From Fistulifera solaris (Eukaryota > Bacillariophyta > Bacillariophyceae > Naviculales > Stauroneidaceae), in assembly GCA_030295235.1 (NCBI GenBank), contig AP026136.1, forward strand, positions 434,001 to 498,000: a stretch of DNA of 64,000 nucleotides, given 5' to 3'. The notes below the pieces were generated by a model. It did not search any database. It was not told the DNA's origin and saw only the letters and a program-made list of their open reading frames with translations. A program made the translations under genes and the position numbers. This document shows, one piece after another, positions 22,672-58,100 of this stretch (position 1 is its first letter; each line of letters opens with the position of its first letter).

Positions 22672-23138
22672 TTAAAATAAAAATTATCCAATTCGGAAAG
22701 TGCCTTTCTTGGAGGTCGCGCTTTAATACAACGTAGAGAATTGAGAACAAACTTGTGATACTGCAGAACTAATGATGGTAACGGTTTTTCTGTAAACAAT
22801 GATGTCAATAATAGAGGAGTGAGTTGCGCGTTGTGGCGGTGCATTTTTTTTAAGACGGTGCAATACCAGGTACCGGTACCAGGTACTTTTGTAAATCCAA
22901 AGTAATCCGCGTTGCGACAACAAACGAAGTCCAAAAATAATACTCCGTACGGAGTAACGTCGAAGGGGCGAAGATGAGTTTTCATTTTATTTGTTGAGAA
23001 AAGGACTCTTTAAAAGGGAAACGTTAACTATCCCTCATCCATAGCTAGTCTCGTAAGCTTTGCTGGTATACCTTCTTTTCTTCTCACTATTTAATAAGAC
23101 TTGCAAGCCTTCAGGCTCAAAGAAATGCTAATTAAACA
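22672..23138. promoter_or_regulatory. Divergent promoter region with GTACC and TACTCCGTA palindromes
   Basis: A spacer between the acetyltransferase (minus) and Ycf34 (plus). It contains a near-perfect run of GGTACC palindromes at 22866-22887 and a perfect 16-bp palindrome TACTCCGTACGGAGTA at 22941-22956. Both words recur upstream of other genes in this window. Regulatory function is inference. Confidence 0.4.
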
Positions 23139-23636
23139 ATGATCATGCTGAAATATCTATCAATCGGAACACTTGCTTTCACGCTCGACACTTTGCAATC
23201 GTTTTGCATTCCTCGAACCACCACAAGGAAATCATCTCTTTCCATGTGCATTTGCATTGACTGTGCACGTGTGACCGACTGTGCGGCATACCATTTCGTC
23301 GAAAGCAAACATGAGCAACCACATATGAACGAAAATCCCCAATTCACACCCCGCGACGGAAGTCCGACCATTCATGTCAATGTGCGAACACACCGCAACA
23401 ATGAGGAGATCCAGCGTATATGGAAGGAACATAAAGAAGAAACGAAGCTAGCGGAAGCCAAAGCTGGAGACACGCAAGGAGAGTTACGCGGTGAGACGGT
23501 ATACGACATGTCTCCTTCCACCACCATCGAGTACGATGTAGTAAAATGCGCAGATTTTGTGGAGGATAAGGGATGTTGGGTGCGGAATATGCCGGAAGAA
23601 ATAAGAAAAGCCAATCCAAATTTCGTTCCGACCTAA
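23139..23636 (+). CDS. ycf34: Nuclear-encoded, plastid-targeted Ycf34
   Basis: An intact 165-residue frame. Residues 1-36 are a leader: hydrophobic signal core (YLSIGTLAFTLDTLQ), then SFCIPRTTTRKSS, a Phe-led basic transit start typical of diatom plastid proteins. The mature part is Ycf34: C37-x-C39-x2-C42-x5-C48 followed by YHFVESKHEQPHMNENPQF, P.I.VNV, and the conserved end EYDVVKCADFVEDKG ... NFVPT. Ycf34 is encoded in cyanobacteria and in red-lineage plastid genomes; in Synechocystis it binds an iron-sulphur cluster and affects photosynthetic pigment and complex formation. Here it is in the nucleus, an endosymbiotic gene transfer with an acquired import signal. No intron. It converges with eIF1A. 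Confidence 0.92.
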   Translation: MIMLKYLSIGTLAFTLDTLQSFCIPRTTTRKSSLSMCICIDCARVTDCAAYHFVESKHEQPHMNENPQFTPRDGSPTIHVNVRTHRNNEEIQRIWKEHKEETKLAEAKAGDTQGELRGETVYDMSPSTTIEYDVVKCADFVEDKGCWVRNMPEEIRKANPNFVPT

Positions 23637-27422: not shown

Positions 27423-29043
27423 ATGTGGCTGAGCTGGATCGTCTTTCTCATTTTTCCTTCATCAACGCTAGTCCAATCCTTTCATTTAATTCCAAGACAC
27501 AGCAGATACGCTTATCAGAGAACAGTTGCTATAGACGAGCAATCGCAGAAGACACATCACAAAAATAGACGCACAAACCACAAGGTTCGTGGCTTACTCG
27601 ATCATGTTCTGAATCGATTGAATCATGAATGGGATGAAACAAAATGGTCTCGATTACGTAACTACTTGTATCGCAGTCAAGAAAAGTTGACCGAAGATCA
27701 AGTCAAAAACGTGTTGGATTTTTTATTGCAGCATTTGGAAGAAAAAGATGCAGCTCTTGTTTTGCAACAATCTCCTAGAATACTGCGTAAAAACGCCAAG
27801 ACAAGTCTAGAACCGACCTATCAGTTCCTAAAGGAACTTTACGGTGAATCGTTACTTTCTATGGCTTTGAAACGAAATCCAGATCTTCTTCTTACTCGTG
27901 GAGCTGGTTATGACGGGGGAGTCTTGGAGCTAGTAGAAGTCTTTCTTGCGGAAGAGCTAGCTTTGAGTCAACGACAAATCGCGACCATCAAAAAAGACTT
28001 TCCCGTCCTTTTCCAGACGCCTGTGTCAAAATTGCTCTCAACAGTCTACCTGTTTCGCACTCGAATGGAGCATCAAACGCGCGAACAAGCCACTGCTGCA
28101 ATTGCTAAATTGATGTTACTTCATCCTCAAGTATTCATTTTGTCAGTCGAGAGCATAGAGCATCGGATTGAATTCCTCGTCAAAGATTGCGGTTTAGACA
28201 CGGACTCTGTAGTTCGAAATGCGGGGTTCCTGTTGGGACTGTCAATAGAGGAGAATCTGGAACCGAAATTGAAATTGCTCTTGCAGTATATTCCCAACCG
28301 AGAAAAGTTAGCCACTGCCTTGAAATCACATCCACAGATTCTTGGATTAGCGCAAGATAATTTGCAAGCAAAGGTATCGTACTTTGATCGAATTGATGCG
28401 GATTGTTTCGGAACGCATCCATCTTTCGCTCGTGACGACTCTCTAGCCAGCCGCATTCTCATGAGAGCAACACCAGTTCTTTCTCTTAGCCTGAAAAAGA
28501 ATATTATACCGAAGATTGACTTTCTCGCTAAAGTATGGGGCATTGATGATGTCGCAGCTGATGCTCGTCCACGTATAGCATCGTTAGATACATCCCCTCG
28601 TTCGCCCAGATTGTCGCTTTCCAAACAACTTCGACAATACCCAAGTATTCTCAGCCTGAGCCTGGAGGGGGAACATACGGCCCACAGCCGAGTTTTATAA
28701 TCGAACAAATTACATTGAATTGGACAGTAACTGGAGGTTGCAGCCGTGGTCCGTCTCTCTCAGGGGTCGTGACTTGGCCGCTTCGCTACCCAATCGCTTA
28801 CTACCTCGATGGCATTTCTTTCACTCTAAACAAGTTTCAACAGAAGACCGCAATACACAGCGTGCAATGCAAAAAGGCCTTTCATTGCATATTCTTGTAT
28901 CGGCCACGGACACTATTTTCTGCGATGAATTCAATTTTGATACGACGGAGTATAGCGTATTCAAACGTGAGGCTATTCCGCGCTTGAAGTTCAGCTCCCA
29001 ATTTGACACGTGGATCAAGACAGGGCGACCCATTGATGTATAA
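27423..29043 (+). CDS. Plastid-targeted mTERF-like protein, frame break
   Basis: About 535 residues. The N-terminus MWLSWIVFLIFPSSTLVQSF then HLIPRHSR is a signal peptide with a Phe-led transit start, indicating plastid import. The body consists of repeated two- to three-helix MTERF units with the spaced LxxxP pattern: VLQQSPRILRKN, ALKRNPDLLLTRG, LMLLHPQVFILS, ALKSHPQILGLA, ATPVLSLSLKKN and LRQYPSILSLSLE. MTERF proteins bind organelle nucleic acids and act in transcription, rRNA maturation or splicing. The frame changes in the G5 run 28667-28671; one G fewer continues as SLEGNIRPTAEFYNRTNY and then a C-terminal part of about 100 residues. No intron. Confidence 0.85.
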
Positions 29044-55159: not shown

Positions 55160-58100
55160 TCAACTTTCTTCGTCGCTGTCATCCAGGATATGACGTCCTT
55201 TCTTCTTTTCTAGTTCGTCTACTTGGCTTGTGTTGACGGCATCGATGGGGCGCTTTTGAACAATGTGCTCCGAAATGCTTGCAACAGTTGTAGTTGTGTC
55301 CCTTTCGTGGTCAGAAGTGGCGGCAGTAACGTTGCTCTCTTTGACCTGTCCTCCAAAGGCGATCTGCGCAGTACGATCATCATCGGTAGAACTAGGTTGA
55401 GCGGCTTCAAGCACATTCTCAAATGAAGTGGCGCGTGAGTCGCCTGCTTCGTGCATTGCTCCTGACGCTTGTTGCTCGGCTTCCTCTTCGTCGTCGTTTG
55501 TTGGCTCAAAATCGTTTCCGAAATTAACTGAATCTAACTTGACTTCGGTGGTCAATGATTGCTCTTCCTCACTTTCCAATTCATCATTGGTGGATCGCTG
55601 TTGGGTAGATTGTTCAGGAACATTCGCGGAAGCGGTAGTCGACTGGAGTTCGCCTTCGAAAAAAGCGTGCGACTCGTAATCTTTGATCGCTGCTCTTTCC
55701 TTTTCAAGCTCATTTCTTGGATAGCGGCCGTTTTCATAAGTGGCTGATTCATATTTCGCTTCCTTGACCGTATTTTCCATTTCCTTTTCGTTTTCCTCTT
55801 CCTCGTCAGAATCATCATCATCAATCAATCGCGTTTTTCGTTTCGGACTACTTTCTACCTTGCGCATTGCTTCGTTATGCTTTTCAGATGTAGCTGTATT
55901 TAAATCGGCTTCTTTCAGCGTGACCTGGTCCCCTTGAAACTCCATTTCTTCATCAGAATCGTCATGAATGAGGCGCTTCTGAGTTGTTCGTTTCGGACTG
56001 CTACCCAAAGTATCCGTCACTTTACGCTCGTTTCCAGAAGTTCCTGAATGTGCGATGACTTCTGTCGACGTGCCCTGCTCCTCTTCAAACTCCATTTCTT
56101 CATCGGAATCATCATTAATGGAGCGTCGCGGAATGCTTCGTTTCGGACTGTCAACATTGTCCGTCGCTTCAAGCTCGTTTTCAGAAGTTGTTGGATTTGC
56201 ATTGGCTTTTCTGATCATGGTCGTTTCCCCATCGAACTCCAACTCTTCATCAGAACTATCATCAATGGAGCGTTTCTGAGTTCTTCGTTTCGGACTGCTT
56301 CCAACATTGTCCGTCGCTTCAAAATCGTTTTCAGAAGTTGTCGAATTCGGCTTAGCACTTTTCAACATAACTTCTTTCCCTTCAAACTCCATTTCTTCAT
56401 CAGAATCATCATCGATGACTCGCTTACGAGAGCTTCTTGTGGCATTGCCATTCGATGTGCTGTTACTTCCATTTGCGCCTGAACGATCTTCTTCGTTCAC
56501 TCCCGCACCTCGTGGATTACCCGAAGACCCACCACGCTCAGTATGGTCATCAAACTCAGGTTCGTCTTCTTCCTCATCTTCTTTGGCAAGTGCTTCAGAG
56601 TACTGACGCTCAAAGAACTCCTGCCTTTCAAGAAGAAGTTCGCGGTCGGCCAACATCCTGAGTTCTTCCGTAACGTACATATTTGTGACATGATCACAGA
56701 ACTTATGTGGTAGCGGGTGCCTGAAAAGAGCTTCAACAAACAGCAACGGGTTTTCAGATGCTAGTTTTGCGAAATTGCCGACGGTCGTGACGCAAAAGTT
56801 CAAAACTGGCGTGAAATCCTTGTCCTTGTACACACATTTGTCGTTGAGAATGGTATTAGCAACGTTTAGAAAGTGATAATTGTAAAGCAAAGGTTCGAGA
56901 GTCACCTTCTTCGTGGCCAACAAGTTCTGCGGGAGTCCTTCAGTTTCGTCCGGGGACAGTGACTCAGGGACAGCTAACTTGACTTGCGCCAACCGAAGGA
57001 AAAACGACACGATCCGGTGATTCACTTGGGGAGAATTCACGTGATATTGAGACAGCAACTGCGTATACATGTGGACGGACTGGTTCGACACAATCTTCCT
57101 CGTAAAGTAGGCCATGACGTCGAAGCTGGCAGCAGCCGCTCTGAGTTTGTTGACGGTATCCTTTTGTCCTGAACGGTTTGGTTTCGAGCGGCCTTAGCAC
57201 TCAATTCGAGAAGCTTCATTGTTATGTGACTGATTTCCACGATATCGCAAAGATGTTCCCGTGTGTTTGTCCCTGGAGCCCATTTTGAAATAAGCTTTGG
57301 CAGACGATCTAAGGGATCTCCGTTGTAAAACAAGCGATCCATTAAACCAACAGCCATGAGATGCTCCGTAGAATCTTCCGACTGATACATGATATGGAGA
57401 AGATGCATCATTTCACTGAGCAGTGCGACGGTCGAAACCATACGTCTATGTTTCTTGTGCTGGTGAAACGTGTCTATCGCATTGAAAACCATGTTGAACG
57501 TGAAGATATCCAGCGTAAAAATGAGCTGTCCCAAAACCTCTTTCGTTGAATCACTGCTGTTAGTAGTTATTGATTTGCGTCCTCCCGATCTCCACCACTG
57601 CGAAAAGAACCACACGATATGGAAGAAGACGACTCGGTCATTATCTTCCAACCGAACCGAGTCCCGTCGAAATTCGTTTTTCAAACTCTTCATCACCGGA
57701 CCGTAGCACTCTTTCAAAAAGCGTCGACAGAAATCGTCCAAGGTACGGTGCGCGCGCTTGAAATGGGACCGATCGTCAATCGACAACCCGATCGCGCATG
57801 TACCTGCAGTGTAACAGAGTTTCCGACAAAGCAATCCAGCTTTTTACTTTTGCGTCGATTCACAATGGGTGCTGTAGAGGTAGTACTGGCAAATAATCCT
57901 GCGGACGTACTGACATATTTCCCCTTTTCTCCGTGACGTCCTTTTAACTGGAGCGTACCACCAAAGTTCGAATGTCGACTGGATACGGTCACCGCCAGGG
58001 CCTGTTTCTCACGGGCGAGCTGTGCTTGCAAGGAACCTGGTTGGCCCCGTCGCTGCTCCGGAATCGCCGGCCCCATGCATGCTTTCGCGACAGCCATCGG

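Follow-up and report, generated by a model that had tools for sequence, protein, structure and literature searches.

To our knowledge, Ycf34 proteins outside the diatom nucleus are found in cyanobacteria and plastids only. The locus studied here lies in a 64,000-nucleotide stretch of DNA from the marine diatom Fistulifera solaris (the window), and it raises the question of how such a gene came to be there and whether its product can still reach the plastid. The answer that we favor, with a probability of roughly 0.87, is that the nuclear ycf34 is the product of an old plastid-to-nucleus transfer, with the plastid copy gone and a bipartite leader of 35 residues gained.

The nuclear gene and its homoeologue

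The open reading frame at 23139-23636 on the forward strand translates into 165 amino acids with zero internal stops and no intron, while five stops interrupt the displayed frame of the opposite strand over the same interval. It is divided as follows.

23139..23636, + strand: nuclear ycf34 gene, 165 codons plus stop, no intron; intact second copy on contig C11
23139..23201, + strand: predicted ER signal peptide, residues 1-21, from the sequence and the homoeologue (MLKCLWIGTLLAFTIDSVQA); hydropathy weak in the window copy, clear in the homoeologue
23202..23243, + strand: predicted transit peptide FCIPRTTTRKSSLS, residues 22-35, starting with F at +1 and containing three basic residues and no acidic ones
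23244..23402, + strand: Ycf34 N-terminal core from the ancestral Met, with CxCxxCx5C (Pfam, alignment)
23403..23519, + strand: 39-residue charged insert, residues 89-127, absent from the nine aligned cyanobacterial rows
23520..23633, + strand: Ycf34 C-terminal core (TTIEYDVVKC...FVPT; Pfam, whole-assembly search, alignment); one amino acid change between the homoeologues in residues 130-165

An earlier note on this DNA had named the protein Ycf34 from its four-Cys motif, its YHxVE..H..PH block, and its EYDVV...NFVPT end. All of these blocks were found in the protein, and the name was confirmed by Pfam, which returned a single family, Ycf34 (PF10718), at 90.6 bits (cut-off, 25; E = 1.1e-25); an NCBIfam search with E up to 1 gave zero matches. 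The CxCxxCx5C motif is formed by C37, C39, C42, and C48 at the ancestral start, and these four cysteines are invariant in all 11 rows of an alignment of the window protein, its homoeologue, and nine cyanobacterial Ycf34 proteins. A fifth cysteine, C137 (in VVKC), is kept in the cyanobacterial proteins too. The positions common to all 11 rows (mature numbering) include, among others, M1, C2, C4, C7, C13, Y16, V19, E20, H23, H27, E96, D98, V99, C102, G110, W112, and P129. No relatives were found in the PDB, where the search gave only 14 weak matches (tektin, annexin, etc.; best E, 0.3), and a search for phage and viral relatives also found none. An AlphaFold2 model of the mature protein from a two-sequence input had a mean pLDDT of 36 and was too poor to use.

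The assembly comprises 51.7 Mb in 61 contigs, and the window lies on a contig of 1.37 Mb (C12), where ycf34 is flanked by a GNAT acetyltransferase gene and an eIF-1A gene, with Ribosomal_S8e next. A second copy, with an open frame and 91% protein identity, was found on contig C11. Between window base 4 and base 55357, where the compared part of C11 ends, the two contigs share 12 collinear alignments; 11 of these are 83 to 90% identical, and the twelfth, of 132 bases, is 76% identical. The F. solaris genome is described in PMC5935921 as an allopolyploid one with 42 pairs of homoeologous chromosomes and an overall sequence homology of 75%, and the collinear copy on C11 fits an allodiploid diatom. 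A 23-base guide-RNA target of the apt genes, given with identical letters for both F. solaris homoeologues in PMC13276009, is present exactly two times in the assembly (on C38 and C39), and its reversed sequence is absent, which points to F. solaris or a very close strain. Additionally, the GC3 of ycf34 is 0.49, compared with 0.23 for psaB and 0.24 for psaA on plastid contig C60, which agrees with a long nuclear residence. The nuclear location claimed earlier was therefore upheld by the size of the contig, the eukaryotic neighbors, and the homoeologous copy. Bacterial contamination was also considered as a source of the gene and was excluded by the collinear homoeologous contigs together with the eukaryotic neighbors.

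Insertions of plastid DNA into the nucleus occur in algae, and a locus of this kind could in principle be a functionless nuclear copy of plastid DNA. We give this explanation practically no credence, because each copy has an open frame and a nuclear composition, the pair shows purifying selection, and a search of the whole assembly found no plastid donor copy. Over 163 codons the homoeologues differ by 26 synonymous and 14 nonsynonymous changes (dN/dS, 0.12), and in the 130 codons of the mature protein the counts are 22 and 6 (dN/dS, 0.057). The changes are unevenly spread: the 50 core codons of residues 36-85 carry 6 synonymous and 0 nonsynonymous changes, residues 86-129 (the insert with three residues before and two after it) carry 10 and 5 (dN/dS, 0.10), and residues 130-165 carry 6 and 1. 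The low dN/dS between the copies, the insert region included, shows that the protein, with its insert, is selected as a protein. The maintenance of two selected copies indicates that Ycf34 still matters in F. solaris.

The plastid copy and the origin of the gene

When the whole assembly was searched in six frames with PF10718 (E up to 10), 4 matches appeared, all within the two nuclear genes. There was no Ycf34 match on the plastid contigs C60 and C61, a 16,000-base stretch of C61 reading N. As controls, psaA and psaB were found on C60, and among small genes, ycf33 was found on C60 (one full and one shorter match) and psaE on both C60 and C61. A local search of plastid pieces with a Ycf34 profile had a best E of 1.9, whereas the nuclear homoeologue scored 1.2e-34, a positive control that is not independent because the profile contains the window protein. 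This local search took in 159,161 bases, with overlapping loci and the 16,000 N counted in; it covered 32,645 of the 232,645 bases of C60, the psaA/psaB loci of that contig, and all of C61, and the rest of C60 was covered by the six-frame search only. The lack of a detectable plastid ycf34 in the same species, which the reading in the earlier note implies, was thus borne out by both plastid contigs, on which the control genes were detected.

The plastid DNA itself appears twice in the assembly. C60 carries psaA and psaB twice, in mirror arrangement. C61 holds another version of the C60 sequence that is rich in indels and 98.6 to 99.8% identical over the compared parts, and in which the psaA and psaB frames are broken. 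Assembly noise is the most likely cause of this second version.

The distribution of ycf34 in other algae bears on where the nuclear gene came from. A table in PMC2765969 has a joint row for acsF/petJ/rps1/ycf34/ycf54, given as present in the plastids of Ectocarpus, Fucus, and Heterosigma, as partial in Vaucheria and red algae, and as absent in three diatoms, one haptophyte, and two cryptophytes. In PMC2410131, ycf34 is listed among the genes kept by the Heterosigma plastid and not by those three diatoms, and gene lists for Nannochloropsis plastids include a ycf34 of 252 to 261 bp. In the passages covered from papers naming ycf34 in the literature library searched, we found no report of a nuclear ycf34 in a diatom, and PF10718 is named in no paper of that library.

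Among cyanobacteria, the family was found in 185 of the 386 Cyanobacteriota genomes searched. A gene resembling ycf34 also lies on four Leptolyngbya boryana plasmids of about 0.5 Mb (NZ_AP014640.1, NZ_AP014644.1, NZ_CP092421.1, and AP018205.1), with 55% identity across 78% of the cyanobacterial query. The diatom gene might instead have been acquired by horizontal transfer from a free-living cyanobacterium and gained its leader later, or it might be a contaminant. In a midpoint-rooted tree of 33 rows (31 cyanobacterial and 2 diatom), the two diatom proteins share a very long branch whose attachment beside a single cyanobacterial row, L069, is weakly supported (97/43), a position compatible with a cyanobacterial donor, and 16 of the 28 inner branches are unresolved. 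We rejected this cyanobacteria-only tree as evidence of origin, as it neither supports nor refutes a plastid source. The contaminant version is excluded by the collinear contigs and the eukaryotic neighbors, and for the remainder, relocation is the simpler fit for a gene that three diatom plastids lack and related plastids have, so that we regard a cyanobacterial donor as distinctly unlikely. The plastid origin of the nuclear gene is thus suggested by its distribution and not by the tree. The transfer from the endosymbiont proposed earlier stood as the kind of event, given the nuclear locus, the plastid contigs with no detected copy, and the origin indicated by the distribution; for this one diatom, ycf34 has moved and was not lost.

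Three other genes, acsF, ycf54, and ycf65, are likewise absent from the three diatom plastids tabled in PMC2765969. AcsF (TIGR02029), Ycf54 (PF10674), and Ycf65 (PF04839) had no match anywhere in the assembly with E values of up to 1 allowed, each search having matched in Synechococcus elongatus as a control; since every exon is searched separately, genes split into very short exons might escape detection. Of Ycf34, AcsF, Ycf54, and Ycf65, the four families tried, only ycf34 was detectable in the nucleus. BchE (TIGR02026) had no match in the whole assembly at E up to 1e-5, a search in which none of the 14 controls was over the cut-off. Ycf54 is a partner of AcsF, the aerobic chlorophyll ring cyclase, and the closure of the chlorophyll E ring in this diatom is a known puzzle.

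The leader and the insert

Residue 36 is the retained native Met of Ycf34, and the added leader is therefore 35 residues long, one fewer than the 36 given in the earlier note. The first ATG of the window copy is missing from the homoeologue, which begins at the Met that corresponds to window residue 3; this makes 23145 the probable conserved start. In the window, a five-codon upstream frame (ATG CTA ATT AAA CAA TGA, 23125-23142) overlaps the first ATG, and the homoeologue has neither this frame nor that ATG. The window leader reads MIMLKYLSIGTLAFTLDTLQS before and FCIPRTTTRKSSLS after the putative cleavage site, and the homoeologue reads MLKCLWIGTLLAFTIDSVQA before and FCIPRSTKRKSSLS after it. 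Both copies show an ASAFAP-type pattern, a predicted signal peptide with F at +1 followed by a basic, acid-poor stretch, and the F at +1, the CIPR, and the basic, acid-free character are all kept in the homoeologue (QAFCIPR). Plastid leaders of diatoms are described in PMC4329603 as an ER signal peptide plus a transit peptide that commonly has Phe first, is positively charged overall, and contains few acidic residues.

A crude leader test was passed by the homoeologue and narrowly missed by the window copy, whose best 9-residue hydropathy stood at the limit of 1.6. This test is unspecific, as it also takes 7 of the 86 window open reading frames of at least 100 amino acids, some lying antisense to longer frames, and 1,709 shuffled leaders out of 20,000. 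Because it is too weak alone, the case for the leader rests on the pattern and its conservation. The mTERF-family protein encoded at 27423-28700 has a leader of the same type (VQS followed by FHLIPR) and is perhaps a plastid-targeted neighbor.

The leader could also belong to a functional nuclear gene whose protein is sent elsewhere, for example to the secretory pathway or the periplastidal space. Its 33 codons have 4 synonymous and 8 nonsynonymous changes between the homoeologues (dN/dS, 0.64), and this rapid evolution, together with the absence of strong hydrophobicity in the window copy, leaves some room for such a route. Fast change is usual in transit peptides. However, in both copies F stands at +1 and is followed by a basic stretch free of acidic residues, and the Ycf34 family is otherwise known only in cyanobacteria and plastids. 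The conserved features match the rule for plastid import (PMC4329603), and we consider another destination very unlikely. The bipartite plastid leader proposed earlier thus stands as a prediction from the pattern and from the QAFCIPR of the homoeologue, with its length corrected.

The earlier note had also described an insert of about 45 charged residues before the conserved C terminus. The insert is real, translated, and charged, but it measures 39 residues against most cyanobacterial rows; it sits between the VNVRT and IEYDVV blocks, and 16 of its 39 residues are D, E, K, or R. The window protein has two further residues in excess of the cyanobacterial rows before the PTI block and a 7-residue extension near the C terminus, before the final VPT (23604-23624). 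Cyanobacterial Ycf34 proteins are 82 to 84 amino acids long in 32 loci, two of which are an identical Prochlorococcus protein and 30 of which are the best scoring of 185 positive genomes. Among the full-length cyanobacterial matches listed, the family spans 222 to 264 bases, versus 345 here (to profile position 76). An additional stretch that the cyanobacterial proteins lack, and that contains GT and AG dinucleotides, might be taken for an unspliced intron and not for a part of the protein. We judge this extremely unlikely, since there is no indel between the homoeologues across the insert, and the dN/dS of 0.10 over residues 86-129 argues for protein and against an intron. Our guess is that the insert serves as a partner-binding or regulatory loop.

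Proposed function and comparison with known systems

If the leader works as predicted, the signal peptide would take Ycf34 into the ER, and cleavage between S21 and F22 (between A and F in the homoeologue) would expose a basic transit peptide with Phe first. The transit peptide would then bring the protein through the envelopes of the plastid that remain to be crossed and might be removed near the ancestral Met36. Iron-sulphur cluster binding is a feature of the Ycf34 family. In the 2012 work of Wallner et al., Ycf34 of Synechocystis reportedly has a role in photosynthetic electron transport. By analogy with that protein, the four-Cys motif may bind an iron-sulphur cluster in the stroma and support photosynthetic electron transport. 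A more speculative and rather doubtful extension is that the move placed a putative iron-sulphur helper under nuclear control and that the insert is a new partner site or switch for tuning it, for example to the iron supply. What is most useful in these results is the pair of selected homoeologues together with the translated insert, the latter being open to experiment, and F. solaris can be genome-edited (PMC13276009).

The cyanobacterial proteins of PF10718 share with the window protein the four-Cys motif, the fifth Cys, the E.DV, and the P at the end, and the nine aligned rows are 43 to 49% identical to it. They differ from it in being 82 to 84 amino acids long (32 loci) and in having neither the leader nor the 39-residue insert. 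The ycf34 genes of brown algae, Heterosigma, and Nannochloropsis belong to the same family, as judged by name in gene lists, and they are plastid encoded, whereas the F. solaris gene is nuclear; at 252 to 261 bp, the Nannochloropsis gene is too short for a leader plus an insert.

Endosymbiotic gene transfer is a known kind of event, of which ycf34 is a further example, and for F. solaris, at least, it reveals the whereabouts of a gene that diatom plastid genomes lack. The closest parallel is the nuclear petF of Thalassiosira oceanica, which, like ycf34 here, is a gene for an iron-sulphur protein that has passed from a diatom plastid to the nucleus (PMC3022921). In contrast to ycf34, which is missing from all three diatom plastids tabled in PMC2765969, petF is described in PMC3022921 as kept in the plastid by T. 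pseudonana and other diatoms. Overall, ycf34 adds an iron-sulphur protein to the plastid-to-nucleus transfers of diatoms, beside petF.
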